NCBI GenBank assembly: GCA_023150455.1
Contig: JAKLKW010000004.1
Location: 1 to 64,000, forward strand
Origin: Alphaproteobacteria bacterium
GTDB taxonomy: Bacteria > Pseudomonadota > Alphaproteobacteria > JAEULC01
Direction: 5' to 3'
DNA length: 64,000 nucleotides
Shown one piece after another: positions 8,053 through 51,479 of the stretch; the first letter of the stretch is position 1; each line of letters begins with the position of its first letter. The notes under the pieces are model-generated. The model did no database searches. It saw nothing but the letters and a program-made list of their open reading frames with translations, and was not told the origin of the DNA. Both the position numbers and the translations under genes were made by a program.

Positions 8053-8127
8053 ATCTGGATGTCGCGCGCGGAAAGACCGAGAATGGCGCGCCGGCCGCCG
8101 TCCGGGGCGGCCGGGTGGGGGAGCGCC

Positions 8128-9321
8128 GTGGCGTCGAGCGACCTGCGGGTGTTCATCAACTACCGGCGTGACGACAGCCCCGGCTCGGCCGGGCGGCTGC
8201 ACGACCGCCTGGCGCTGGAGATTCCGCCCGAGCACCTGTTCATGGACGTCGACGCGATCGCGCCGGGGGTCGACTTCGTCGACGAGATCGACCGCAAGGT
8301 CAGGGCCTGCGACGTGATGCTGGCGATCATCGGCCGCGGCTGGCTCGACGCCGCCGACAAGGAGGGAAGGCGCCGGCTCGACGATGCGGCGGATTTCGTG
8401 CGCCTGGAGATCGCCATGGCCCTCAGGCACGGCGTCAACGTGGTGCCGATCCTGGTGGACGGCGCCAGGATGCCGGCGGCCGAGGACCTGCCCGAGGAGT
8501 TGCGGGCGCTGGCGCGGCGCAACGCGGTCGAGCTCAGCCATCAGCGCTTCGCCGCCGAGGCGAAGAGCCTGGCCCAGGCGCTGGTCAAGAGCCACGCCGA
8601 GGCGAAGGCCCGCGCGGCCGCAGCCGAGGCGGCGGCGCGGCCCCGGCTGCTGTCGTCTCGGCGCCTGGCCGGCGCGGCGGCGACCGCGTTCGCGTTCATC
8701 GCCTCGGGCGCGATCCCCGGCCATTTCTTCGCCGCGCCTGGCACGGAGTGGTGGTTCCTGCGGATCGGCCCCGGCGCGCAGCTCTGGGTCGCGTTCGGCG
8801 CGATGGTGGGTCCGGCGCTGGCGCTGAAGCTGTGGATTCCGCGCCTGGCGTTGCGCCAGTTCTGGAAGTGCGTCGCCGCCATCTTCGGCACGCTGGTCGC
8901 CATGGCCGCGCTGGCGCTGGGGCTGCAGGAGGCGTTCATGTCGTTCGTGCCGCCCAATCCCCAGCGCGGCGTCGACATGCTGGTGTGGATGGGAACGATC
9001 GAGATACCCGTCACCTTTGCCTCCGGCGCCGTGCTGGGATGGCTGCTCGCCTGGGCGCTCCGCTTCTGGTTCCCCGACAAGGGCGGGCCGGGCTTCTTCA
9101 GCCGCATGGTCCTGATCTGGATCGCTGCCGGGCTCAGCTATGCCGTCGCCAACTATCTGCTGATCTCGATCGCCGAGGCCGCCGCTGCGCGTGTGGCGGG
9201 CGCCGAGGATGCGCTCGGCGCGCGCGAGGCCATGCGGATGTGGACCGACACGGTGGTGTTCGGCTTGTGCTGGGCGCTGGGAATCGTGCTGACCTTCCGC
9301 CTGGCCGCGCGCGCCCGCTGA
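8128..9321 (+). CDS. TIR-domain protein with six membrane segments
   Basis: A 397-residue protein from GTG 8128, which has GGGGGAG just upstream; in-frame ATGs at 8059 and 8083 would add a tail lying in the repeat block. Residues 6-135 form a TIR domain (VFINYRRDDS, then VFMDVD-like LFMDVDAI, and VIGRGWL-like IIGRGWL). Glu94 in VRLEI aligns with the catalytic glutamate of NAD-cleaving TIR proteins. An Ala-rich helix (about 150-180) leads to six hydrophobic segments at roughly 175-198, 210-235, 248-272, 290-315, 325-350 and 374-397. A membrane-tethered NADase or signalling adaptor is inferred. No partner gene is adjacent. Confidence 0.8.
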   Translation: MASSDLRVFINYRRDDSPGSAGRLHDRLALEIPPEHLFMDVDAIAPGVDFVDEIDRKVRACDVMLAIIGRGWLDAADKEGRRRLDDAADFVRLEIAMALRHGVNVVPILVDGARMPAAEDLPEELRALARRNAVELSHQRFAAEAKSLAQALVKSHAEAKARAAAAEAAARPRLLSSRRLAGAAATAFAFIASGAIPGHFFAAPGTEWWFLRIGPGAQLWVAFGAMVGPALALKLWIPRLALRQFWKCVAAIFGTLVAMAALALGLQEAFMSFVPPNPQRGVDMLVWMGTIEIPVTFASGAVLGWLLAWALRFWFPDKGGPGFFSRMVLIWIAAGLSYAVANYLLISIAEAAAARVAGAEDALGAREAMRMWTDTVVFGLCWALGIVLTFRLAARAR

Positions 9322-9336: not shown

Positions 9337-9942
9337 TCAATCCAGCCGGCGGTCCTCGAGGTGGCGCCGCAGCGCCCGCGTGTAGCGCGGCATCACGGTC
9401 GGCATGATCGACTGGCCCTCGGGCGGGCGGTCGATGCCGAACACCGTCCTGGGGAAGTCGAGCGGCTTCTGCACCGACCAGATCTCCTCGTGCTTCTCCG
9501 GCGGCAGGATGCGCGCCGGGTCGCCGACGGCGACCCAGCCGATCGGCACGGTGGCGTCGGCGGCCAGGCGCGTGCGCAAATGCACCGTGCCGTTGATGCG
9601 CACTTCCGCGCGCCGGCCGACGACGGCGCGATTGAAGACGCAGGCGCCGGTGGCGAGGAACGCCTCGGCCTCGACCGTGCAGCCGGTCAGATAGGCGCGC
9701 GGCCCGACCAGCACGTTGTCGCCGACCGTCAGCGGCGCCTCGGGCGCGCCGCGCAGCACGGCGTTCTCCATGATCACGCAGTCGCGCCCGATGCGGATCG
9801 GCCCGCCCTCCGCGCTCAGGACCGCGCCGAACAGCACGCAGCTGCCTTCGCCGATCTCGACGTCGCCCGAGACGACGGCGTTGGGCGCGATGTAGACGTC
9901 CTTGGCCAGGGTCGGCCCGGCGCCGCGGTGCTCGATCAGCAT
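9337..9942 (-). CDS. Hexapeptide-repeat protein, metal site lost
   Basis: A 201-residue left-handed beta-helix protein of the gamma-CA/acyltransferase group. Hexapeptide turns run from VYIAPNAVVSGDVEIGE to about residue 130. Unlike the relative at 5327, the second and third metal histidines are replaced (VGDNVLVGPRAYLTGC), so carbonic anhydrase chemistry is unlikely; only the histidine in GTVHL remains. The ATG (GGAG upstream) follows the DprE2-like stop by 12 bases, making it the last gene of the polyprenyl-pentose operon. It may be an acyltransferase or structural subunit acting with that pathway; this is inference. Confidence 0.75.
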   Translation of the reverse strand: MLIEHRGAGPTLAKDVYIAPNAVVSGDVEIGEGSCVLFGAVLSAEGGPIRIGRDCVIMENAVLRGAPEAPLTVGDNVLVGPRAYLTGCTVEAEAFLATGACVFNRAVVGRRAEVRINGTVHLRTRLAADATVPIGWVAVGDPARILPPEKHEEIWSVQKPLDFPRTVFGIDRPPEGQSIMPTVMPRYTRALRRHLEDRRLD

Positions 9943-9953
9943 GAGGTGCTCCG

Positions 9954-10697
9954 TCAGATATCCAGCCGCTTCATCACCCGCTCGGGAATCGCCTTGATGA
10001 CCGCCATGATCGGGGTCCAGAACCACGGCGCGTAGATCTCGTCGCGTCCCTTGAGCGCCGCCTTCAGCGCGGCCTCGGCCACCGCGCGCGGCGAGGCGAC
10101 CAGGAACAGCTCGGGGCGGCCGAAGGTCATGGCCGTGTCGACGAACCCGGGCTTGACCGTGGTCACCGTCACGCCGTGACGATGAAGGCGCGCGCGCAGG
10201 CCCTGCAGATAGGCATGCAGGCCCGCCTTGGTCGCGCCGTAGACATAGTTCTTGCGCCGGCCGCGGTCGCCGGCGACCGAGCCGAGCGCGATCAGGTGCC
10301 CGCCTTCCTGGTCCTCCAGATGCGGGGCGAGCCGGTGCAGCACGCTGACCGCGCCGGTGAACCCGGCGCCGATCGTGGCCAGCGCCAGGTCGGGCTCGGC
10401 GTCGACCGAGGCCTGCTCCTCCATGTAGGCGAAGGCGAGGAAGACGCCGAGACGCCCCGGCGCCAGCCGGCGGCAGTCGCGCGCGAAGTCGGGGTGCGAC
10501 GCGGTGTCCAGCGCGTCGAAGCCGAGCACGTGGACGGAAGCCGCGCCGCGCAGCGCCAGGTCCTTGGCGAGGATATCCAGGTCCTCGCGGTCGCGCCCGG
10601 CCAGGATGACGCCGTCGCCGCGCCGGGCGACCAGGCGCGCGAAGGCGCGCGCGATGGCCGAGGACGCGCCGAGCACGACCCAGGTTTCGCCGCTCAT
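9954..10697 (-). CDS. DprE2-like SDR, polyprenyl-P keto-pentose reductase
   Basis: A 247-residue short-chain dehydrogenase with a cofactor motif GASSAIA (10-16) and catalytic Ser140, Tyr153 and Lys157 (YGATK). Position behind a DprE1-like oxidase and a UbiA-like transferase identifies it as the likely 2-ulose reductase that finishes epimerisation of decaprenylphosphoryl-ribose to -arabinose. In mycobacteria the equivalent is Rv3791; related genes act in Nod-factor arabinosylation in Azorhizobium. Assignment rests on both family and operon. Confidence 0.82.
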   Translation of the reverse strand: MSGETWVVLGASSAIARAFARLVARRGDGVILAGRDREDLDILAKDLALRGAASVHVLGFDALDTASHPDFARDCRRLAPGRLGVFLAFAYMEEQASVDAEPDLALATIGAGFTGAVSVLHRLAPHLEDQEGGHLIALGSVAGDRGRRKNYVYGATKAGLHAYLQGLRARLHRHGVTVTTVKPGFVDTAMTFGRPELFLVASPRAVAEAALKAALKGRDEIYAPWFWTPIMAVIKAIPERVMKRLDI

Positions 10698-10710
10698 GGG
10701 GTCTCGCCGC

Positions 10711-12072
10711 TCACGCCACGTCCTCGCGGATGCGCAGGCGGCGCGCCATGTCCGAGCGGAAGCGTCCCTGCGGGTCGACCGCCGCCAGCACGCGGCGCAG
10801 CTCGTCGAGGCGCGGGTACATCCGGGCGAAGCCCTCCGGGCTCAGCGCCGAATCCTTGGCCAGGTAGATGCGCCCGCCGTGGTCGAGCGTGATGCGCTCG
10901 AGCCGGTGCAGCAGGTCCGGCGCGTCGGGCCGGTTCGGGAAGTCGAGCGCCAGCGTGATCCCGCGCATCGGGAACGACAGAAAGCCGCGCCCGTCGCCGC
11001 CCAGGGTCTTGATGACGGCGAGGAACGAGGCGGCGCGCGACTGCGCCGCCGCCTCCAGCAGCGCGCGCAGGCCCTTCTCGGCCTCGGCGTCCGGCAGCAC
11101 GCACTGGAACTGGCGGAAGCCGCGGCTGCCGTAGAGCCGGTTCCAGCCGCTGAGCGCGTCGAGCGGGAACAGGAACCGCCGCAGGCCGACGCTGCGCTCG
11201 CGCCCGCCCGCCGGCACGCGGCGGAAATAGAGCTCGTTGAAGGCGGCGACGCCGGCCGCGTTCAGCACGGAGCCCGGCAGGTCGAACGGCACGGGCAGCG
11301 CGCCGCGCCGGTCGCGCGCGACCGCCGTGCCGGCGGGCGCCGGCTCGGCCGTCTCGAGGATGCCGCGGCCGAGGCTGCCGCCGCGCGCCAGCGCGTCGAT
11401 CCAGCCGACCGACCAGGTCGCGGCGCGCGCGCGCGTGGCGAAGGCGGACAGGAAATCGTCGAGCGAGGCCATGCGCTCCTCGCGCAAGCGTACCGCCGGC
11501 GACGGCACGCGCTCGAGCGCGAGGCCGAGGCGCAGCACGATGCCGCTGAGGCCGATGCCGCCGCAGGTCGCCGCGAACAGCGCGGGATCGGAGTCCGGCG
11601 TGACGCGCCGGACCGCGCCGTCGGCGGCCAGCAGGTCGAACCAGCGCACGTGGTCGGCGAAGCTGCCGACGCGGTCGTGGTTCTTGCCGTGCACGTCGTT
11701 GGCGAGCGCGCCGCCCAGCGTGACGAAGGCGGTGCCGGGGCAGACCGGCGGCATCCAGCCGCGCGGCAGGAACACGTCGACCAGGTCGTCGATCGTGACG
11801 CCGGCCTCGCAATCCAGCGCCCCGGTCGCCGCGTCGAACGCGAGCAGGCGGTCGAGGCGCTCGGTCAGGATCGTGTCGCCGCCCTGGTTCAGCGCCGCGT
11901 CGCCGTAGGCGCGGCCCAGGCCCCGCGCGATGACGCCGCCGGGGCCTGCGGCCCAGAGCGCGGAGGCGACTTCGCCGATCCGCTCGGGCCGCCGCGCGGT
12001 CGTCTCCGCCACGGCCACGCGGCCCCAGCCGGAGAGGCGGAGCAGCGCCGCGCCCTGAGGGCGCTCAGCCAT
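10711..12072 (-). CDS. DprE1-like FAD oxidase, polyprenyl-P-ribose 2'-oxidase
   Basis: A 453-residue FAD-binding oxidoreductase. The FAD half shows ARGLGRAYGDAA and ANDVHGKNHDRVGSF (His132 equals the mycobacterial active-site His); the substrate half ends with IYLAKDS (Lys406, the active lysine) and the typical C-terminus SDMARRL. At the place of the mycobacterial cysteine that benzothiazinones attack there is Ala375 (GITLALDFP). It overlaps the UbiA gene by eight bases and is followed after 13 bases by the reductase, so the three are one operon. Confidence 0.88.
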   Translation of the reverse strand: MAERPQGAALLRLSGWGRVAVAETTARRPERIGEVASALWAAGPGGVIARGLGRAYGDAALNQGGDTILTERLDRLLAFDAATGALDCEAGVTIDDLVDVFLPRGWMPPVCPGTAFVTLGGALANDVHGKNHDRVGSFADHVRWFDLLAADGAVRRVTPDSDPALFAATCGGIGLSGIVLRLGLALERVPSPAVRLREERMASLDDFLSAFATRARAATWSVGWIDALARGGSLGRGILETAEPAPAGTAVARDRRGALPVPFDLPGSVLNAAGVAAFNELYFRRVPAGGRERSVGLRRFLFPLDALSGWNRLYGSRGFRQFQCVLPDAEAEKGLRALLEAAAQSRAASFLAVIKTLGGDGRGFLSFPMRGITLALDFPNRPDAPDLLHRLERITLDHGGRIYLAKDSALSPEGFARMYPRLDELRRVLAAVDPQGRFRSDMARRLRIREDVA

Positions 12073-12943
12073 AAATCACCACGGCGAAGGCGACGGCCCA
12101 GCCGACCACGCACACGATCATGAACGGATCGGTCAGCACGATCCGGGTCGGCGAGCCCGAGCGCTCCTCGACCAGCGCGATCTGCAGGTAGCGCAGGATG
12201 CCGCCGACGACGAAGGGCGTCGTCAGGTACAGGTTCTCGCCGAGCCGCGCCATCACCTGCTGGTCGGTCGTATAGATAAGGTAGGAGACCAGCAGCGCGC
12301 CCAGCACCATGGCGAGTGCCGCGTCGAGGAACGGCCTCGTGTAGCCGCTGAGGCTCTTGCGGTGCTGGTCGTCGAGCTCGCGCACCAGGTCGTCGCGGCG
12401 CTTGGCGATGGCGAGGAACAGCGCCAGCAGGCCCGAGCAGATCACGATCCACACGCTCGGCTTGATGTCGGCGACGGCCGCGCCGGCCTCGACGCGCAGC
12501 ACGAAGCCGATCGCGAGCACGACCACGTCGACGATCGAGACGTGCTTGAGCGCGAAGCAGTAGGCGACCTGCATCGCCAGGTACAGGGCGAGGAAGGTGA
12601 AGAACCGCATCGACAGCAGCGCGCCGACGACGATCGCGAAGCCGCCAAGCGCCGCCATCGCCGTCAGCGCGGTGCGCTCGTCCACCGTGCCGGCGGCGAG
12701 CGGACGCAGGCGCTTCAGCGGGTGCAGCCGGTCGGCCGCGCGGTCGCGCCAGTCGTTCAGGATGTAGACGGCGCTGGCCGCGGCGCAGAAGCACAGTGCC
12801 GCGATCAGCGTCGCCGCGATGTTGCCCGCGGTCTGCGCCTCGGGCGTGAAGAACAGCGGCGCCAGCACGAAGGCGTTCTTCACCCATTGATGCGGTCGCA
12901 TCAGGGCGATCAGGCCGCTCGTCGAAACCTGGCTTGGGCGCAC
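12065..12943 (-). CDS. UbiA-family polyprenyl-phosphate phosphoribosyltransferase
   Basis: A 292-residue membrane prenyl-acceptor transferase with about eight hydrophobic segments. The signature NDWRDRAADRLHPLKRLRP (63-81) has the Mg-binding NDxxDxxxD and the HPxKRxRP part typical of decaprenyl-phosphate phosphoribosyltransferases (Rv3806c type) rather than of UbiA or heme O synthases. It would join PRPP to a polyprenyl phosphate at the inner membrane. First gene of the operon; the phosphatase that removes the 5-phosphate is not encoded nearby. The start 12943 is the most upstream ATG; ATG at residue 15 is an alternative. Confidence 0.88.
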   Translation of the reverse strand: MRPSQVSTSGLIALMRPHQWVKNAFVLAPLFFTPEAQTAGNIAATLIAALCFCAAASAVYILNDWRDRAADRLHPLKRLRPLAAGTVDERTALTAMAALGGFAIVVGALLSMRFFTFLALYLAMQVAYCFALKHVSIVDVVVLAIGFVLRVEAGAAVADIKPSVWIVICSGLLALFLAIAKRRDDLVRELDDQHRKSLSGYTRPFLDAALAMVLGALLVSYLIYTTDQQVMARLGENLYLTTPFVVGGILRYLQIALVEERSGSPTRIVLTDPFMIVCVVGWAVAFAVVIYG

Positions 12944-13023: not shown

Positions 13024-14652
13024 ATGTACCGGATCGGGGTCATCTTGTGCCGCGGCGCGGTGCAGCGCTGGCAGCGCGCCTGCATCGAGGCGATCGAGGC
13101 GCTGGGCTACGCCGAGATCGCGCTGGTCCTGGAACTGGACAATCCGTCGCCGCTGCGCCTGCCGGTCGGCGCGCGCGCCGGGGCGGAGGTGCCGGGCGAC
13201 TGGATCCCGCCGGGGACGGCGATCGTCGCCGGCCGCGCCGCGGCGTTGGATGGTGGCGCGGCTTGGACGCTGCGCGATGCCGACCGCGCCGCGATCGCCG
13301 GGCATACGCTGGACGTGCTGCTCGACCTGACCGGCCTGCGCCTCGCGGCCGGCCCCGGCCCGTCGGCCCGCCACGGCGTGTGGGGCCTGCATCACGGCGA
13401 TCCCGCGCGCTTCGACGGGCGCGATCCCGGCTTCCGCGAGGTCGCCACCGGCGCGCTTTGCAGCGCGGCGCTGCTCTATCGCGCGATCGGCGACGATGCG
13501 GGCGGCGGCCCGGAGGTCGAGGTGCTGCGCGAGGGCTGGTTCAAGACGCGGCAGACGCCGCGGCGCAACGCCGATTCCGTGCTGCTGCTCTCGGCGCGCC
13601 TGCCCGCGCTGGTCCTGCGCGCGATGGCGGAGACGCGCGGCACGCCGCTTGCGGTGCGCCGCCTGTGCCTGCCGCCGCCGGCGTCGCCGCCGCGCGCGCG
13701 CGACCGGTTCGCCGCCTGGGCCCAGGTTGCCGCCGCCATGGCCGGCAGCGCGCGCCGCCGGCTGTGCCGGGAGCGCTGGACGGTCGGCGTCGTGGCGCAG
13801 CCGGTCGACGAGGTCGTGCGCGCGCGCCGCCTCGACGCGCCGCGCTGGCTCGCCAACCAGCCCGACGACCGCTTCTACGCCGACCCCTTCCCGCTCGGCC
13901 GCGCGGGCGGGCGGCTCGAGGTCCTGGTGGAAGCGGCGCGGTACGCGGTCTCGCGCGGCTACCTGGCGCGCCTGGAGCTGGATGAACGGGCCTACGCGCG
14001 CGAGGCCGCGCTGCTGGAGACGCCGGAGCATCTGTCCTATCCCGCGATCCTCAACGAGGACGGCGCGACCTATGTCATTCCGGAGAGCTGGCAGACGGGG
14101 CGGCTCGCGGCCTATCGCCTCGATGCGGCGAGCGGCGCGATGGTGCACGACGGCGACCTGATGGTCGGCATGGCCGTGGTCGATCCGACGCTGCTCCGGC
14201 ACGACGGCAAGTGGTGGCTGTTCTGCTGCGACCGGCACGATCACGACCAGAGCAATCTCTACGTGTTCCACGCGGCGAGCTGGCGCGGTCCCTGGCTGCC
14301 GCACGCGCAGAACCCGGTGAAGATCGACGTGCGCTCCAGCCGTCCGGCCGGCGCGTTCCTCAGCGTCGACGGCGCGCTGTACCGCCCGGCGCAGGACTGC
14401 GCCCTGCGCTACGGCAGCGCGATCGCCGTCAACCGCGTGCTCGAGCTGACGGAACGGCGCTTCCGCGAGGAGGTCGCCTTCGTGCTGCGGCCCGACCCGG
14501 ACGGGCCCTATCCCGACGGGCTGCACACGATCAACGGCTTGGACGGGGTCACGGTCGTCGACGGCCAGAAGCTGAGCTTCGAGCCCCTGGCGGCGATCGC
14601 CGACCGCTTCGCCCGGCGCCGCAACCGGCGCCGGCGGGATGCGCGTGCCTAG
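13024..14652 (+). CDS. Formyltransferase-like + GINT1-N-like propeller protein
   Basis: A 542-residue protein divergent from the UbiA-DprE operon. The N-terminal ~230 residues (RIGVILCRGAVQRWQ, then HGVWGLHHGDPARF) resemble the formyltransferase-like half seen in some polysaccharide proteins. Residues about 270-530 carry the FYADPF, VEAARYA and YPDGLHTIN motifs of the glucosamine inositolphosphorylceramide transferase N-terminal domain, a GH43-like beta-propeller. It is probably cytoplasmic and acts on a glycan or glycolipid. ATG 13024 is preceded by a G-rich stretch. The basic C-terminus (ARRRNRRRRDAR) is notable. Exact activity unknown. Confidence 0.75.
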   Translation: MYRIGVILCRGAVQRWQRACIEAIEALGYAEIALVLELDNPSPLRLPVGARAGAEVPGDWIPPGTAIVAGRAAALDGGAAWTLRDADRAAIAGHTLDVLLDLTGLRLAAGPGPSARHGVWGLHHGDPARFDGRDPGFREVATGALCSAALLYRAIGDDAGGGPEVEVLREGWFKTRQTPRRNADSVLLLSARLPALVLRAMAETRGTPLAVRRLCLPPPASPPRARDRFAAWAQVAAAMAGSARRRLCRERWTVGVVAQPVDEVVRARRLDAPRWLANQPDDRFYADPFPLGRAGGRLEVLVEAARYAVSRGYLARLELDERAYAREAALLETPEHLSYPAILNEDGATYVIPESWQTGRLAAYRLDAASGAMVHDGDLMVGMAVVDPTLLRHDGKWWLFCCDRHDHDQSNLYVFHAASWRGPWLPHAQNPVKIDVRSSRPAGAFLSVDGALYRPAQDCALRYGSAIAVNRVLELTERRFREEVAFVLRPDPDGPYPDGLHTINGLDGVTVVDGQKLSFEPLAAIADRFARRRNRRRRDARA

Positions 14653-14682: not shown

Positions 14683-15699
14683 TCAGTAACCGTCGAAGTC
14701 GCCGGTGATCACGCCCCAGTCGTAGGGCGGCGGCGCGTCGTCGGGGCAGCGCCGTCCGTCGAAGGGGACGGTGCCGGCGCGCAGGAAGGCGGCGCGGCGC
14801 AGAAGCGGCGTCAGCTCGTCGCGCGAGCAGATCGCCTCGAGCCGCCAGGCGCCGCCTTCGCGCGCGCGGTCGATCGCGGCGGCGAGCACGCAGGCGAGGC
14901 CGTCGCGATCGGTGCCGAGCAGCTCCATGAGGCCGGCGCGGCCGTTGGCGCGCTTGCCCCAGGACGCGTCGCGCATGCCCCACACCGCGGCGGCGACCGC
15001 CTCGCCGCCGCGCCGCGCGGTCAGCCACTCGTAGCCCATCGCCGCCTCGGGCGCGTAGCGCCATTCGAGCTCCGCGAGCGTGCGCACGACGCGGCACTCG
15101 CCCGGCGCGGGACGTGGCTCGATCAGCCGCGCCAGCGCAGCGCCGTCCGGCTTGCCGGCCGCGACCTCCACGCCGCTTCCGGTCCGTCCCCGCGGCAGCA
15201 GGGCGACCAGCCGGTCGAGCACGGCGCCGCCGGCGCCGGGGCGCCGGCGCGACGGCCGGATCCAGCGCACCCAGCGCGGCATGTCGTCGATGTAGTGGAA
15301 GGCCTGCGACTTGACGAACATCGGCAGGCTGGTGTCGTTGGGGAAGCCGTAGATCACCTCGATCCCGCGGGCGGCGGCTTCCTCGCGCGCCTTGCGCGCG
15401 AGCAATCCGAACAGCCCGCGGCCGCGGGCGCGCGGATGCACCATCGTGTCGATCGACTGGCAGGCGGCGAAGCGGCGCCCATCCAGCACCGCCTCGGTCG
15501 GGATCAGCGCGTTCAAGCCGGCGATGCCGTCGCTGTCCTCGCCGACCATCAGGACGGCGGGGACGTCCTTGCGGCCGAAGAAGCGCCAGCGGTCATGCGC
15601 GAGCGGGCGCTCGCCCTGCTTGACGGCGTCGAACAGGGCGCGGATGCCGGCGAGGTCGTCGGGCACGGCCGGGCGCCAGCGCCATGCCGCGGTATCCAT
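14683..15699 (-). CDS. GNAT-family N-acetyltransferase
   Basis: A 338-residue protein whose N-terminal 150 residues are a GNAT fold: acetyl-CoA loop region VHPRARGRGLFGLL and YGFPNDTSLPMF, typical of the long Eis/FemX-like GNATs with a second, degenerate GNAT half. It begins three bases after the TRAP permease stop, so it is in that operon. The acceptor is unknown; context might suggest modification of an imported acid, but that is inference. Confidence 0.75.
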   Translation of the reverse strand: MDTAAWRWRPAVPDDLAGIRALFDAVKQGERPLAHDRWRFFGRKDVPAVLMVGEDSDGIAGLNALIPTEAVLDGRRFAACQSIDTMVHPRARGRGLFGLLARKAREEAAARGIEVIYGFPNDTSLPMFVKSQAFHYIDDMPRWVRWIRPSRRRPGAGGAVLDRLVALLPRGRTGSGVEVAAGKPDGAALARLIEPRPAPGECRVVRTLAELEWRYAPEAAMGYEWLTARRGGEAVAAAVWGMRDASWGKRANGRAGLMELLGTDRDGLACVLAAAIDRAREGGAWRLEAICSRDELTPLLRRAAFLRAGTVPFDGRRCPDDAPPPYDWGVITGDFDGY

Positions 15700-41223: not shown

Positions 41224-42186
41224 ATGCGGCTCTTGTTCATCACCGCGACGCGGATCGGCGACGCCGTTCTGACGACCGGGCTTCTGGAGCATCTGCGCCG
41301 CGCGCATCCGGGCATCGCCGTCACCGTGGCCTGCGGCGCGCCCGCGGCGCCCCTGTTCCGTGCGCTGCCGGGCCTCGAGCGGCTGATCGTGCTGAACAAG
41401 CGGCGCTGGGGCCTGCATTGGCTCGACCTCTGGCGCCGGGTCGCGTTCCATGGATGGGATATCGTGGTCGACCTGCGGCGCACCGCCTTGCCCTATCTGC
41501 TGTCCGCGCGCGAGCGCCATCGCGCGCCGCATCCCCAGCCGGGGCGCCACCGCGTCGGCGAGCTGGCGGCGGCGCTCGACCTGCCCGAGCCGCCGGCGCC
41601 CTGCCTGTGGCTCGGCGAGGCCGACCGCGCGGCGGCGCAGCGCCTGGTGCCGCCGGGCCCGCCGGTGCTCGCCCTCGGCCCCGCGGCCAACTGGCGCGGC
41701 AAGCAGTGGCGCGCCGAGCGCTTCGCCGCGCTCGCGCTCCGGCTCACGGCGCCGGGCGCCATCCTCGCCGGCGCACGCGTCGCGGTGATCGCGGCGGCGG
41801 CCGAGCGCGCGCAGGCGGCGCCCGTGCTCGACGCCGTGCCGGCCGAACGCCGCATCGATCTGGTCGGCGCCGCCGACCTGCCCGTGCTCGCCGCGTGCCT
41901 GGAGCGCGCGGCGCTGTTCGTCGGCAACGATTCCGGCCTGATGCACCTCGCCGCCGCCTCCGGCGTGCCGACGCTCGGCCTGTTCGGTCCCAGCCCGGAC
42001 GACCGCTACGCGCCGTGGGGGCCGCGCGCCGCGTTCGTGCGCACGCGCGAGAGCTACAAGGCGCTGGTCACCGCGCCGTCGTTCGACCATCGCACGACGG
42101 ACACGCTGATGGACGGGCTCGGCGTCGACGATGCGGTCGCGGCGGCCGAGGCGCTGTGGGACCGGCTGCAGGGCAAGGCGGCATGA
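41224..42186 (+). CDS. Glycosyltransferase family 9 (heptosyltransferase-like)
   Basis: A 320-residue GT-B enzyme. The N-terminal LFITATRIGDAVLTTGLL and the C-terminal FVGNDSGLMHLAAASGVP with the following GPSPDDRYAP are hallmarks of the ADP-heptose:LPS heptosyltransferases, though these also include other sugars. First gene of the polysaccharide operon; its stop overlaps the next start. Confidence 0.9.
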   Translation: MRLLFITATRIGDAVLTTGLLEHLRRAHPGIAVTVACGAPAAPLFRALPGLERLIVLNKRRWGLHWLDLWRRVAFHGWDIVVDLRRTALPYLLSARERHRAPHPQPGRHRVGELAAALDLPEPPAPCLWLGEADRAAAQRLVPPGPPVLALGPAANWRGKQWRAERFAALALRLTAPGAILAGARVAVIAAAAERAQAAPVLDAVPAERRIDLVGAADLPVLAACLERAALFVGNDSGLMHLAAASGVPTLGLFGPSPDDRYAPWGPRAAFVRTRESYKALVTAPSFDHRTTDTLMDGLGVDDAVAAAEALWDRLQGKAA

Positions 42187-42947
42187 GCACACCGCTTCTC
42201 TCGGCGCTGGTGGTCGCGCACAACGAGGAGGCGCGCATCGCCGCCTGCCTCGATGCGCTCGGCTTCGCCGACGAGATCGTCGTCGTGCTCGACCGCTGCA
42301 GCGACCGCACGGCCGAGATTGCGCGGCGCTACACCGACCGGCTGCTGCCGGGCGCCTGGGAGTTCGAAGGCGACCGGCGCAACGCCGGCATCGGGCAATG
42401 CCGCGGCCAGTGGGTGCTCGAGGTCGACGCCGACGAGCGCGTCCCGCCCGAGCTCGCCGCGGAGATCCGCGCGACCGTCGCCAGCTCGACGAACGACTGG
42501 CACGAGATCCCGGTCGACAACTATGTCGGCGAGCGGCTGGTGCGCTACGGCTGGGGCGCCTCGTTCGGCCGCTCGGCCTATGCCGGGCTGTTCCGCCGCG
42601 GCGCCAAGCGCTGGGGGCGCGAGCGCGTGCATCCCAGACTCGCGTTCACCGGCACGAAGGGCGTGCGCCTCGACACGCCGATCCGGCACTATGTCGACCG
42701 CGACATCTCCGACATGCTGCGCCGGCTCGACCGCTACACCACCGCGCGCGCCCGCGACCTGCGCGAGTCGGGCGACCCGGGCAGCTTCGCCGCCAATGTC
42801 CGGCGCATCTTCTCGCGCTTCTGGAAGTGCTATGTGGGGCGCAAGGGCTATCGCGAAGGCGGCTACGGATTCCTGATCGCGCTGTGCGCCGGTCTCTACC
42901 CGATCCTGTCCTATCTCAAGGCGACGCTGGAAGAGGACCATCCGTAA
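42183..42947 (+). CDS. Glycosyltransferase family 2 (WaaE/KdtX-like)
   Basis: A 254-residue GT-A enzyme. LVVAHNEEARIAACLDAL starts the nucleotide-sugar site, and the metal-binding motif is EVDADERV. The RRNAGI and WGRERVHPRL stretches fit the core-LPS beta-1,4-glucosyltransferase group. No membrane segment except a weak C-terminal one. Overlaps both neighbours. Confidence 0.88.
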   Translation: MSTPLLSALVVAHNEEARIAACLDALGFADEIVVVLDRCSDRTAEIARRYTDRLLPGAWEFEGDRRNAGIGQCRGQWVLEVDADERVPPELAAEIRATVASSTNDWHEIPVDNYVGERLVRYGWGASFGRSAYAGLFRRGAKRWGRERVHPRLAFTGTKGVRLDTPIRHYVDRDISDMLRRLDRYTTARARDLRESGDPGSFAANVRRIFSRFWKCYVGRKGYREGGYGFLIALCAGLYPILSYLKATLEEDHP

Positions 42948-43981
42948 TGGCCGACATCGTCATGGCCGACGACGGCATCGCCTTCGACAGCGAGGTGATG
43001 CGCCAGCGTCCGCTCGGCGGCGCCGAGACCGCGCTCACGAGCCTTGCCGAGGCGCTGGCGGCGCGCGGCAACACGGTCACGGTGTGCAACAACTGCGCGA
43101 ACCCCGGCGTGCACGAAGGCGTCGCCTGGCGCCGCATCGCCGACGGCCTGCCCGGGCGCGCCGACCTTTATATCGCCAATCGCGGGGACAGGCTGATCCT
43201 GGCGATGGGGCGGCGCGCGCGCCGCACCGTGTTCTGGATCCACAACCCCGCGCGCTACCTGATGAAGCTGCGCTATCTGTGGAAGCTCGCGTGGAAGCGG
43301 CCGGCGATCGTGTTCTCCGGCCCCAGCCATGTCGCGACCTATCCGCATTGGGCGCCGGGCGAGCGCGTCGTCATTCCCTACGGCATCGCCGACCTGTTCC
43401 GCCACGCGCAGCCCGCCGGCGAGCCGCCGCCGCCGCGCGCCATCTTCACCTCGAATCCCATGCGCGGGCTCGCCTGGCTGCTCGAGCTGTGGGCCTCGCG
43501 CATCCATCCCGGCATGCCGACGGCCGAGCTGCACGTCTTCTCCGGCCCCTCGACCTACGGCGCCGCCGGCCGCGCCAAGGCGGCGGCGATGCAGGCCGTG
43601 CTCGAGCGCGCGCGGCACCTGTCGAACTGCGGCGTGGTGCTGCGCGAGCCGGTGGCGAAATCGGTGCTGGTGGACGAGCTGCGCCAGGCGCGCGTGATGC
43701 TCTACCGCGGCGATCCCGGCGAGACCTTCTGCCTGGCCGTCGGCGAGGCGCAGGCGGTCGGCGTGCCCGCCGTGGTGCAGCCGATCGGCGCCACGCCCGA
43801 GCGCGTGGTCGACGGCATCACCGGCCACGTCGCCACGGACGACAACGAGTTCGCGGCGGCCGCGGTGCGCCTTCTGGCCGACGATTCGCTCTGGCGCATG
43901 GAGCACCGCGCGGCGCTGGAGCGCCAGCGCGCCTGGGGCTGGGACGATGCGGCGGCGGCGTTCGAACGGCTGATCCCGTGA
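42947..43981 (+). CDS. Glycosyltransferase family 4, first
   Basis: A 344-residue GT-B protein. RPLGGAETALTSLAEALAARG opens the acceptor domain; the donor half has VIPYGIADLF, the SNPMRGL loop and a degenerate E-x7-E region YRGDPGETFCLAVGEAQAVGVP. Start ATG overlaps the previous stop (TAATG). Donor and acceptor unknown. Confidence 0.83.
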   Translation: MADIVMADDGIAFDSEVMRQRPLGGAETALTSLAEALAARGNTVTVCNNCANPGVHEGVAWRRIADGLPGRADLYIANRGDRLILAMGRRARRTVFWIHNPARYLMKLRYLWKLAWKRPAIVFSGPSHVATYPHWAPGERVVIPYGIADLFRHAQPAGEPPPPRAIFTSNPMRGLAWLLELWASRIHPGMPTAELHVFSGPSTYGAAGRAKAAAMQAVLERARHLSNCGVVLREPVAKSVLVDELRQARVMLYRGDPGETFCLAVGEAQAVGVPAVVQPIGATPERVVDGITGHVATDDNEFAAAAVRLLADDSLWRMEHRAALERQRAWGWDDAAAAFERLIP

Positions 43982-45024
43982 CCCGGCTGTTCCAGGCGAT
44001 CGCCGGCGGCAAGCAGGGCGGAGCCGAGAACTTCTTCGTGCGCCTCGCCGTCGCCTTCGCGCGCGCCGGGCTGGAGCAGCGCGTGGCGATCAGGCGCAAC
44101 GCGGCGCGCGCCGCGGCGCTCCGCGCCGGCGGCGTCGAGCCGATCGAGCTCGGCTTCGGCGGCTGGCTCGACTTCGCCACGCGGCCGGCGCTCGCGCGTG
44201 CGATCGGCGCGTTCCGTCCCGACGTGGTGATGACCTGGATGAGCCGCGCGACCGCGCTCTGTCCCGCCGCCGATGCCACCCGGCCCTTCGTCCATGTCGG
44301 GCGCCTGGGCGGATACTACGACCTGAAATACTATCGGCGCTGCGACCACCTCGTCGGCAACACCGAGGACATCGTGGAGCATATCGTCGCCGCCGGCTGG
44401 CCGCGCGAGCGCGCGCATTACCTGCCGAACTTCGTCGACGCCGCGCCGGCGGCCGAGCCCGTCCCGCGCGCCGCCTTCGGCACGCCCGGCCAGGCCGCGG
44501 TGCTGCTGGCACTCGGCCGCCTGCACGTGAACAAGGGCTTCGACGTGCTGCTGCGCGCGCTGGCCACGCTGCCCGACGCCGTGCTGTGGCTGGCCGGCGC
44601 GGGGCCGGAGGAGGCGGCGCTGAAGCGGCTCGCACACGAGCTTGGACTCGGCGAGCGCGTTCGCTTCCTCGGCTGGCGCGACGACGTGGCGGCGCTGTTC
44701 GCCGCCGCCGACGTGTTCGTCTGCCCGTCGCGCCACGAGCCGCTCGGCAACGTGGTGATCGAGGCCTGGGCGCACGGCGTGCCGGTCGTGGCCGCCGCGG
44801 CGCAAGGGCCGGCGGCGCTCGTGCGCGGCGGGGTCAGCGGTCTCCTCGTGCCGGTCGACGACGCGCCGGCGCTCGCCGCCGCGATCAGCCGGGCGCTGGG
44901 CGACGCCGACCTGCGCCGCGCCCTCGTCGCCGCCGGACGGCGCGCCTACGAAGCGGATTTCACCGAGGCCGCCGTCGTGGCACGATACCGCGCCTTCTTC
45001 GACCGCATCACGGAAGGACGCTAG
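43978..45024 (+). CDS. Glycosyltransferase family 4, second
   Basis: A 348-residue GT-B protein, GTG start overlapping the preceding stop. AIAGGKQGGAENFFVRL and NFVDAAP are N-domain marks; the donor domain has ALGRLHVNKGFDVLLRAL and CPSRHEPLGNVVIEAWAHGVP with the E-x7-E pair. A standard retaining transferase, cytoplasmic side of the inner membrane. Confidence 0.9.
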   Translation: MTRLFQAIAGGKQGGAENFFVRLAVAFARAGLEQRVAIRRNAARAAALRAGGVEPIELGFGGWLDFATRPALARAIGAFRPDVVMTWMSRATALCPAADATRPFVHVGRLGGYYDLKYYRRCDHLVGNTEDIVEHIVAAGWPRERAHYLPNFVDAAPAAEPVPRAAFGTPGQAAVLLALGRLHVNKGFDVLLRALATLPDAVLWLAGAGPEEAALKRLAHELGLGERVRFLGWRDDVAALFAAADVFVCPSRHEPLGNVVIEAWAHGVPVVAAAAQGPAALVRGGVSGLLVPVDDAPALAAAISRALGDADLRRALVAAGRRAYEADFTEAAVVARYRAFFDRITEGR

Positions 45025-45028
45025 CGCC

Positions 45029-46834
45029 ATGTGCGGCATCGCCGGCCTCATGACGCGGAGCGGCGCGCCGGTCGACCCGGCGATCCTCGACCGCCTGGCG
45101 ACGGCGCTCGGCCATCGCGGGCCGGACGGCGAGGGGCGGCACCTCGCCCGCGACGTCGGGCTGATGCAGCGGCGGCTTGCCATCATCGACCTCGTGACCG
45201 GCGACCAGCCGCTCTACGCGCCGGGCGGCGCCGCGCTCGTCGCCAACGGCGAGATCTACAACTATGTCGAGCTGCGCGCCGCCATGCGCGACGTGAAGTT
45301 CGCCACCGGCTCCGACTGCGAGACGCCGCTGCATCTCTACGAACGGCATGGGCTCGACTATGCGCGGCACCTGCGCGGCATGTACGCGATCGCGATCCAC
45401 GACCCGGCGCGCGACCTGCTGGTGCTGTCGCGCGATCCCTTCGGCATCAAGCCGCTGTGCTACGCCGAGACCGCTGCCGGCCTCGCCTTCGCGTCCGAGC
45501 CGCAGGCGCTGGCCGCCGCGGGCCTGGTCGAGGCCGCGGTCGACCCAGACCGGCGCGCCGAGCTGCTGCAGCTCCAGTTCACGACCGGGGCGGACACGAT
45601 CTTCCGCGGCGTCAAGCGCCTGCTGCCGGGCGAGACCGTCGCGGTCAAGGCCGGCCGCATCGTCGAGCGCCGGCGGATCGCGGCGCTGCCCGAGGGCGGG
45701 CCGGTCGCGACCTCCGAGGCCGCGGCGCTGGCGCGGCTCGACGCGGTGCTCGCGGACAGCGTCAAGGTGCACCAGCGCTCCGACGTGCCCTATGCCATGT
45801 TCCTCTCCGGCGGCATCGACTCGACCGCGGTGCTGGCGATGATGGCGCGGCTGAACGAGCGGCCGGTCACCGCCTTCACCGCCTGGTTCCCCGGCACCGA
45901 GGCGCGCGACGAGCGCGCATTCGCCCAGGCGGCCGCGGCGGCCACGGGCGCGCGTCACGTCGAGGTGCCGTTCGACGAGGACGACTTCTGGTCGCTGCTG
46001 CCGGCCGTCGCGGCGGCGATGGACGAGCCGGCGGCCGACTACGCGACGCTGCCGAGCTACAAGCTGGCGCGCGCGGCCGCGCGCGACTTCAAGGTCGTGC
46101 TGTCGGGCGAGGGCGGCGACGAGATGTTCGCCGGCTACGGCCGCTACCGCGACGCGGTGCGGCCGTGGTGGTGGTTCGGCAAGGCGATGCGCCGGCGCGG
46201 CGCGTTCGACGGGCTGGGCGTGCTGCGACGCGAGCCCGAGCGCTGGCGCGACGGCATCGCCGCTTCCGAGCACGCGGCGCGAAACCCCAGGCGCAGCAAG
46301 CTGCAGCAGGCCCAGGCGACGGACTGCGCCGACTGGCTGCCCAACGACCTGTTGACCAAGCTCGACCGCTGCCTGATGGCGAGCGGGCTCGAGGGGCGCA
46401 CGCCCTTCCTCGATCCCGAGGTCGCGAAGTTCGCCTTCGCCCTGCCGGATGCCCTGAAGGTGCGCGACGACCTCGGCAAGTGGCTGCTGCGCCGCTGGGT
46501 GCACGAGCGCGTGCCCGCCGCGGACGCCTTCGCGCGCAAGCGCGGCTTCACCGTGCCGGTCGGCGAATGGATCGCCCGGCGCGGGGACGAGCTCGGCGAG
46601 CTGGTGGCGCGCCAGCCGGCGATCGAGGAGATCGCGATCCCCGGCGCCGTGCGCGCGCTCTACGCCAACCCGGTCGGCCGGCGCGGCTTCGCCTGCTGGG
46701 TGCTGCTGTTCTACGCGCTGTGGCACGCGCGCCACGTCGAAGGCCGCCCGATCGCCGGCGACGTGTTCGACGTGCTCGACGCCTATGCGCAAGGCGCCGG
46801 GCCGGCCAGCTCCTTCTCCGCCGTCGGGAAGTAG
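45029..46834 (+). CDS. asnB: Asparagine-synthase-like amidotransferase
   Basis: A 601-residue protein with an N-terminal glutaminase (Cys2 in MCGIAGL, HRGPDG, VANGEIYN) and a C-terminal synthase with the PP-loop FLSGGIDST and SGEGGDEMFAGY. It follows the glycosyltransferases by four bases, so in this place it probably amidates a sugar acid or lipid-linked glycan rather than making bulk asparagine, as for WbpS-type proteins. It ends 52 bases inside the convergent next gene. Confidence 0.88.
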   Translation: MCGIAGLMTRSGAPVDPAILDRLATALGHRGPDGEGRHLARDVGLMQRRLAIIDLVTGDQPLYAPGGAALVANGEIYNYVELRAAMRDVKFATGSDCETPLHLYERHGLDYARHLRGMYAIAIHDPARDLLVLSRDPFGIKPLCYAETAAGLAFASEPQALAAAGLVEAAVDPDRRAELLQLQFTTGADTIFRGVKRLLPGETVAVKAGRIVERRRIAALPEGGPVATSEAAALARLDAVLADSVKVHQRSDVPYAMFLSGGIDSTAVLAMMARLNERPVTAFTAWFPGTEARDERAFAQAAAAATGARHVEVPFDEDDFWSLLPAVAAAMDEPAADYATLPSYKLARAAARDFKVVLSGEGGDEMFAGYGRYRDAVRPWWWFGKAMRRRGAFDGLGVLRREPERWRDGIAASEHAARNPRRSKLQQAQATDCADWLPNDLLTKLDRCLMASGLEGRTPFLDPEVAKFAFALPDALKVRDDLGKWLLRRWVHERVPAADAFARKRGFTVPVGEWIARRGDELGELVARQPAIEEIAIPGAVRALYANPVGRRGFACWVLLFYALWHARHVEGRPIAGDVFDVLDAYAQGAGPASSFSAVGK

Positions 46835-50639: not shown

Positions 50640-51479
50640 TTGGACGTAACGATCTCGGAATGGCGAACCGCGCCGTTCGCGGTGGGCCGCGAGGCGATCT
50701 TCGCCGTCGGCGACGTCCACGGCTGCGCCGACGAGCTCGCCGCTCTGCTCGCGGCTGTCGGGGTTGCGGCGGTCCCGCATGGTCTGCGCAAGCGGCTGGT
50801 CTACCTTGGCGACCTGATCGATCGCGGGCCGCGCAATCTCGACACCCTGAAGCTGTGGGCCGAGCCGGAAGCGGCGCGCGGAGTCGACGCCATCGACCGT
50901 CTGATGGGCAACCACGAGCAGCTCCTGCTGCTGGCGATGACCGGCGGCCCGCATGCCGGCAAAGCCGAGTCGATGTGGCTGAGCGAGGCAATGGGCGGCG
51001 GGTGCGTGCTGGCCGAGATGAATGCGGCCACGGGCTCCGCCGCGGAGCGGCCGACCGCGGCGCTGTTCCGGGCCGCGCTCGGCGACGACATCCATCGCCT
51101 GTTCGCTTCCATGCGGTCGCATGTCGCGGTCGGCAACACGATCCTCGTGCACGGCGGCCTCGAGCCCGGCGAGGAACCCGACCAATACCTGGCGCGGCCT
51201 TGGCAGTCGTTCACCGATGCGCGCTGGGCCTGGGTGCATGGCGAGTTCCTGCAATGGCAGGGCGGGTTCGGCGGGCGGATGGTGGTCCACGGCCACACGC
51301 CGCCGCACAAGCACCGCGAGCTGACCGGTCAGGAAGACCCGCATCTGTTCGCGTTCGACCGGCTGGGACTCGACGGCGGCACCACGCGCACCGGCATCGT
51401 CACGGGCGCGCAGATCGAGACCGGGCGCTATCGCATCCTGCGGGCGGGCGTGGCCGCGGCGTTCGCGCCCGCGGCGTGA
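50640..51479 (+). CDS. Metallophosphoesterase, PPP-phosphatase type
   Basis: A 279-residue protein. GDVHG, GDLIDRG, GNHE, HGGL and GHTP are the complete set of metal and phosphate ligands of the ApaH/PPP1-like bacterial phosphatases. Candidates are Ap4A hydrolase or protein Ser/Thr phosphatase. TTG start at 50640 with GCGGAG upstream; no better start is in frame. Confidence 0.85.
   Translation: MDVTISEWRTAPFAVGREAIFAVGDVHGCADELAALLAAVGVAAVPHGLRKRLVYLGDLIDRGPRNLDTLKLWAEPEAARGVDAIDRLMGNHEQLLLLAMTGGPHAGKAESMWLSEAMGGGCVLAEMNAATGSAAERPTAALFRAALGDDIHRLFASMRSHVAVGNTILVHGGLEPGEEPDQYLARPWQSFTDARWAWVHGEFLQWQGGFGGRMVVHGHTPPHKHRELTGQEDPHLFAFDRLGLDGGTTRTGIVTGAQIETGRYRILRAGVAAAFAPAA

Follow-up and report, generated by a model that had tools for sequence, protein, structure and literature searches.

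A putative lipid-linked arabinofuranose operon in an alphaproteobacterium, with a first-step enzyme that appears to differ within the genus

The mycobacterial decaprenylphosphoryl-arabinose (DPA) pathway comprises Rv3806c, Rv3807c, DprE1, DprE2, Rv3789 and the Emb/Aft proteins. DPA-type arabinosylation has also been published for Gram-negative bacteria, on Nod factors (PMC2443382, PMC5080398), Pseudomonas paraeruginosa pilins (PMC12369383) and O-antigens (PMC11127046); because rhizobial Nod factors, pilins and O-antigens already use the pathway, a DPA operon in a further Gram-negative is not surprising. Here we analysed bases 1-64000 of contig JAKLKW010000004.1 (G000:C176), hereafter the window, from an Alphaproteobacteria bacterium whose genome assembly (G000; 5.86 Mb, 279 contigs) is ~90% complete, so that absences from it are weak evidence. 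Three genes at 12943-9954, encoding a UbiA-family phosphoribosyltransferase, a DprE1-type oxidase and a DprE2-type reductase (Table 1), very probably make a lipid-linked arabinofuranose donor, polyprenyl-phosphate-D-arabinofuranose (polyprenyl-P-D-arabinofuranose), from phosphoribosyl pyrophosphate (PRPP) for periplasmic arabinosylation.

Compared to the mycobacterial pathway, steps 1, 3 and 4 have homologues in the window, and its UbiA protein is stand-alone like Rv3806c. However, the operon lacks linked phosphatase, flippase and Emb/Aft genes, the residue aligned with Cys387 of DprE1 is alanine, and the polyprenol and acceptor probably differ. The noeCHOP genes of Azorhizobium and noeCNHOP of IRBG74 cover the same three steps with NoeC, NoeH and NoeO (PMC2443382, PMC5080398); by contrast, inspection of the window gene list by eye revealed no neighbouring NoeP or NoeN and no nod genes, in agreement with the initial annotation, which had noted the lack of symbiosis genes. 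The pilin D-arabinofuranose (D-Araf) system of P. paraeruginosa (PSPA7_6245-6251, TfpW) shares Gram-negative DPA-type donor synthesis (PMC12369383), but no pilin or TfpW-like gene is linked to the window operon. Kelly et al. (2024, PMC11127046) described three-component pentofuranose systems that use GT136; these share the UbiA-type PPPRS entry from PRPP and, in their Araf versions, DprE1/DprE2 homologues. They differ in that the window UbiA has no HAD-type phosphoribose phosphatase (PRP) domain and that no MATE flippase or GT136 gene is linked to the operon; flippase and C-fold glycosyltransferase (GT-C) candidates lie on contig C198 instead.

Four tightly spaced open reading frames (ORFs) on the minus strand run in the order UbiA, DprE1, DprE2 and hexapeptide protein over 12943-9337. 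The UbiA and DprE1 ORFs overlap by 8 bp, followed by gaps of 13 bp between DprE1 and DprE2 and 11 bp between DprE2 and the hexapeptide gene; a promoter and terminator scan was uninformative. Against the NCBIfam model of decaprenylphosphoryl-5-phosphoribose (DPPR) synthase, NF008977, the UbiA protein scored 233.6 bits, less than 1 bit short of the cut-off of 234, and its top PDB match is the mycobacterial DPPR synthase (8j8j, E 8.6e-35). The alignment keeps the N, D, D and D residues of the NDxxDxxxD motif, which the Citrobacter homologue reportedly requires to be fully active (Kelly et al., PMC11127046). The DprE1 protein scored 432.8 bits against NF053785 (E 1.9e-129, cut-off 500), with mycobacterial DprE1 as its top PDB match (4aut, E 1.9e-85) and the catalytic residues aligned. 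In this alignment the equivalents of Y60, H132, K134, Q334, Q336, K367 and K418 of the Mycobacterium tuberculosis enzyme are retained, and three positions lining the active site are changed (Y314 to L, N385 to T and C387 to A). The roles and numbering of these residues follow the established picture of DprE1, the target of benzothiazinones. The DprE2 protein scored 178 bits against NF053786 (E 2.6e-52, cut-off 250) and was outscored by a generic model of short-chain dehydrogenases/reductases (SDRs; 252 bits, cut-off 267); its top PDB match is mycobacterial DprE2 (21gq_C, E 1.1e-29), ~50 bits over any other SDR, and its YxxxK motif is present. All three proteins score under the curated equivalog cut-offs and are best described as homologues, not as certified equivalogs. 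The initial annotation had placed these three enzymes in pathway order in one operon, which the profiles, PDB matches and motifs bear out, and their identities were confirmed at the sequence level.

Table 1. Predicted features in and beside the operon (coordinates in the window)
Feature	Coordinates	Strand	Remarks
UbiA-family polyprenyl-phosphate 5-phosphoribosyltransferase (DPPR synthase / Rv3806c / NoeC type)	12065..12943	-	292 aa, single domain, without HAD phosphatase
DprE1-type FAD oxidase (polyprenylphosphoryl-ribose 2'-oxidase)	10711..12072	-	453 aa
DprE2-type SDR 2'-keto reductase	9954..10697	-	247 aa
Left-handed beta-helix hexapeptide protein, gamma-carbonic-anhydrase-like	9337..9942	-	neighbour, judged outside the pathway
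Divergent gene, C-terminal GINT1_N / GH43-like domain	13024..14652	+	PF24793, E 2.7e-24
GNAT acetyltransferase-like protein	14683..15666	-	PF13527; inside the segment that G002 lacks

In the route that we infer, with its enzyme activities, product, lipid, flipping and acceptor, UbiA would join PRPP and polyprenyl phosphate into polyprenyl-P-ribose-5-P, from which a 5'-phosphatase encoded elsewhere would remove the phosphate. Oxidation by DprE1 and reduction by DprE2 would invert C2 to give polyprenyl-P-D-arabinofuranose. The lipid would then be flipped, possibly by a PF03706 flippase-like protein (G000:C198:46066-47079), and a GT-C enzyme, for which G000:C198:48790-50274 is a candidate, would attach arabinose, on the periplasmic side, to an envelope glycan or a surface protein.

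A scan of public bacterial genomes revealed at least 579 stretches encoding DprE1 relatives, of which the best 80 loci were kept; genes in these comparison loci (L labels) were called with a simple caller, and some proteins are cut at the locus ends. In most of the best 80 loci, which come from many genera, DprE2 lies directly downstream of DprE1 and UbiA is adjacent; this recurrence shows that the linkage is not due to chance. Moreover, DprE1 was found at E < 1e-60 in 52 of 387 sampled genomes of the same class (Alphaproteobacteria), a lower bound, as are the other family counts, since the genome searches capped the number of first-look candidates scored in each genome. UbiA-DprE1-DprE2 recurs in dozens of Proteobacteria and is an established set of genes with a patchy distribution, not an isolated oddity. 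The rarity in Gram-negatives that the initial annotation had implied is not supported, in view of these counts and of the documented cases of DPA-type arabinosylation (PMC5080398, PMC12369383, PMC11127046). Its reading of the genes as a source of lipid-linked arabinose is supported by the family and PDB matches, the motifs and the recurrent linkage.

The same three genes occur in the same order, with a stand-alone UbiA at 52-57% identity, in operons of other Alphaproteobacteria (e.g. L003, L007, L104, L105 and L107), whose flanks differ from those of the window. In L005, L006, L102, L103 and L106, a PF03706 gene sits between UbiA and DprE1. By eye, LptF/LptG-looking genes lie divergently beside UbiA-DprE1-DprE2 in two Rhodospirillales genomes (L003:52-1161 and L007:6701-8923), a possible hint at lipopolysaccharide (LPS) as the acceptor.

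In a phylogenetic tree, the UbiA proteins form two well-separated groups, a stand-alone one, to which the UbiA of the window belongs, and one in which most members carry a HAD domain fused at the N-terminus (20 vs 65 rows, support 100/100). A long-branch warning leaves the exact joining uncertain, and some apparently single-domain rows of the HAD group are proteins truncated at locus ends. The two groups differ in domain content as well as in the tree. In a midpoint-rooted FastTree tree, the M. tuberculosis enzyme (Rv3806c) falls on the stand-alone side, not with HAD-UbiA. For the HAD-UbiA group, the 5'-phosphatase would come from the fused domain, as has been demonstrated for ORF15 of Citrobacter (PMC11127046).

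Comparison with three genomes of the same genus revealed that the gene set may be present, absent or differently composed. The stand-alone UbiA is the sole UbiA of DPPR-synthase type found in G000. G001 and G003 carry DprE1-DprE2 at 75-80% identity to the window (75-77% in G003, similar to many neighbouring genes). No UbiA was found at the G003 site, and the G001 contig starts inside DprE1; both genomes encode a HAD-UbiA at another locus, divergent from a PF03706 flippase-like gene. The first-step enzyme thus appears to differ within the genus, being a stand-alone UbiA in G000 and a HAD-UbiA of the separate subfamily in G001 and G003. In G002, neither a DPPR-synthase-type UbiA nor DprE1 was found. 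At its syntenic site, an HNH-endonuclease gene directly adjoins the hexapeptide gene, and the genes that lie between these two in the window (TAXI/TRAP, GNAT, GINT-like, UbiA, DprE1 and DprE2) are missing; either G002 has therefore lost this segment or the other genomes have acquired it, and the hexapeptide gene is not part of it.

The initial annotation had reported no arabinosyltransferase or 5-phosphatase nearby, which holds for the window as checked but is incomplete for the genome, where GT-C candidates exist. The genome search that it had proposed was carried out in part, and yielded GT87, GtrA and PF03706 proteins and an unnamed GT-C-like protein, but no HAD-type PRP domain. The PF03706/TIGR00374 flippase-like protein of C198 has its best matches among the gathered proteins mainly in DprE1-adjacent copies. 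At ~1.7 kb from its gene, on the minus strand, lies the gene of the GT-C-like polytopic protein of 494 aa, which was not recognised by Pfam or NCBIfam. Among the gathered proteins it has a single relative, in G043 (30% identity over 476 aa, E 2.6e-19), whose gene adjoins DprE2-DprE1-GtrA-HAD-UbiA. Two motifs are common to both proteins, namely LSxDSxxY, close to the first membrane segment and at the place expected for the catalytic Asp of a GT-C enzyme, and DFTPFA at the C-terminus. No further member turned up in the 387 class genomes with a profile built from the pair, and searches gave no plasmid match for the candidate and no PDB match with the two-member alignment. The strongest candidate for the missing arabinosyltransferase is the C198 protein. 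That the pair represents a new, unclassified family of D-arabinofuranosyltransferases, combined with an interchangeable first-step enzyme within one genus, is a tentative proposal to which we give rather low confidence.

Genes of GT87, a Pfam family of the AftC type, provide a second set of candidates for the arabinosyltransferase. Profile searches of G000 found a clear GT87 on C50 and a borderline one on C109, in addition to GtrA on C109 and C248. Within the class, GT87 co-occurs with DprE1 (19/52 DprE1 genomes vs 42/335 others; Fisher p 6e-5, ignoring relatedness), and GT87 genes lie near DprE1 in L006, L020, L071 and L108 and on a Rhizobium laguerreae plasmid. The C50 GT87 is present in G000, G001 and G003 and was not found in G002, which fits the distribution of DprE1; its candidacy is weakened by an adjoining DPM1-like-looking GT2 gene and by the fact that only 19 of the 52 DprE1 genomes have any GT87. 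The GT-C-like protein on C109, with GtrA and GT2, was rejected, as it resembles a hexose three-component set and has a homologue in the DprE1-less G002. The R. laguerreae plasmid cluster (L202:6037-14517) encodes a UbiA of HAD-fusion length, GtrA, DprE1, DprE2, two hypothetical proteins and GT87, apparently a compact and complete arabinosylation set.

Several observations weigh against the synthesis and use of an arabinofuranose donor. As far as checked, the window has no gene for a dedicated phosphatase, flippase or arabinosyltransferase linked to the operon, and no HAD PRP-type phosphatase domain was found in the ~90% complete G000, in a search that did not cover the PAP2/Rv3807c and NoeN types. 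In addition, the search that turned up the GT-C candidate was aimed at the surroundings of DprE1, and the association is thin, with a two-member family and one linkage. The missing linked phosphatase is not fatal, because strains affected in this step retain part of their arabinosylation or ribosylation: deletion of noeN, the proposed phosphatase gene, lowers but does not abolish Nod-factor arabinosylation (PMC5080398), and some side-chain addition persists when the PRP site of the Citrobacter enzyme is mutated (PMC11127046).

Within the proposed pathway, the donor might serve arabinosylation of pilins (type IV or Tad/Flp) rather than of a polysaccharide, which we consider improbable. Pilins of P. 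paraeruginosa bear D-Araf oligomers (PMC12369383), and in 18 Rhodobacterales loci (e.g. L043:8986-21251, L025, L032, L033, L037, L044 and L065) DprE1-DprE2 lie within 2-5 kb of Tad/Flp pilus genes, mostly also with a PF03706-type gene and HAD-UbiA. The Tad genes of L043 encode CpaB, a secretin, an OmpA-like protein, a CpaE-like protein and a TadA-like ATPase. This linkage suggests arabinosylation of Flp pilins or of another Tad component in the Rhodobacterales; however, the UbiA proteins of these sets belong to the HAD-UbiA subfamily instead of the stand-alone one, and no pilus assembly genes were noticed near the window operon.

Transfer of a different pentose is unlikely. DprE1 and DprE2 would then act on polyprenyl-P-ribose, with ribofuranose or another epimer being transferred; ribofuranose is the sugar transferred by three-component systems that lack an epimerase, and xylofuranose that of a system with an SDR epimerase (PMC11127046). 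The three active-site changes in the window DprE1 would fit such a divergence, but both C2-epimerase partners are present, match DprE1 and DprE2 specifically as their best relatives and keep the catalytic residues, and among the surveyed O-antigens DprE1/DprE2 homologues go together with Araf glycans (PMC11127046). That the operon is a degenerating remnant, with DPA no longer made or used after loss of its phosphatase and transferase partners, is very unlikely, since, although these partners are unlinked, G002 lacks the whole segment and the other sisters use another first-step enzyme, the ORFs are intact and tightly packed, the catalytic motifs are conserved, and DprE1/DprE2 are as similar to those of G003 as many neighbouring genes are.

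The hexapeptide protein, which the initial annotation had placed at the end of the operon, was rejected as a pathway member. G002 and G010 have its gene but not DprE1, and in G043, G163 and G180 the gene is unlinked to DprE1; it is a bystander, because it is kept in the sister G002, whose syntenic site lacks all pathway genes. The protein was also rejected as a canonical gamma-carbonic anhydrase, since its three zinc-ligand His positions read R, P and T when aligned to the gamma-carbonic anhydrase homologue of the window itself.

The divergent GINT1_N-domain gene belongs to the same gene block within the genus. The domain takes its name from a plant glucosamine inositolphosphorylceramide transferase. 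The gene is linked to DprE1 in G000 and G003 only, is absent in G002, and is relatively divergent in sequence within the genus (60% identity), with no PDB relative found by sequence. Its role as a dedicated pathway partner is unsupported class-wide, as 5 of 23 carriers have DprE1 compared to ~3 expected. Elsewhere in the window, a TIR-domain protein with a hydrophobic C-terminal part (8083-9321, plus strand) has a weak match to Thoeris ThsB and is not in the syntenic region of G003, and a calcineurin-type phosphoesterase is encoded at 50640-51479. A glycan cluster 29 kb from the operon (41224-46834, plus strand), with GT9 heptosyltransferase-like, GT2, two GT4-type and asparagine-synthase-like genes, may serve the synthesis of the LPS core or of a surface glycan.

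As DprE1 is a target of tuberculosis drugs, both the spread of its relatives and a window DprE1 without the reactive cysteine bear on the selectivity of DprE1 inhibitors. The locus adds an alphaproteobacterial lineage to a growing set of Gram-negatives with mycobacterial-type lipid-linked arabinose. What is new here is the apparent difference in the first enzyme within a genus, the exclusion of the hexapeptide gene and one specific transferase candidate; the within-genus comparison, with the genes present, absent or having the first-step enzyme exchanged, sorts pathway genes from bystanders. If the new GT-C family and the exchanged UbiA prove true, the entry enzyme, flippase and transferase modules would have been swapped independently, with the DprE1/DprE2 pair being kept.

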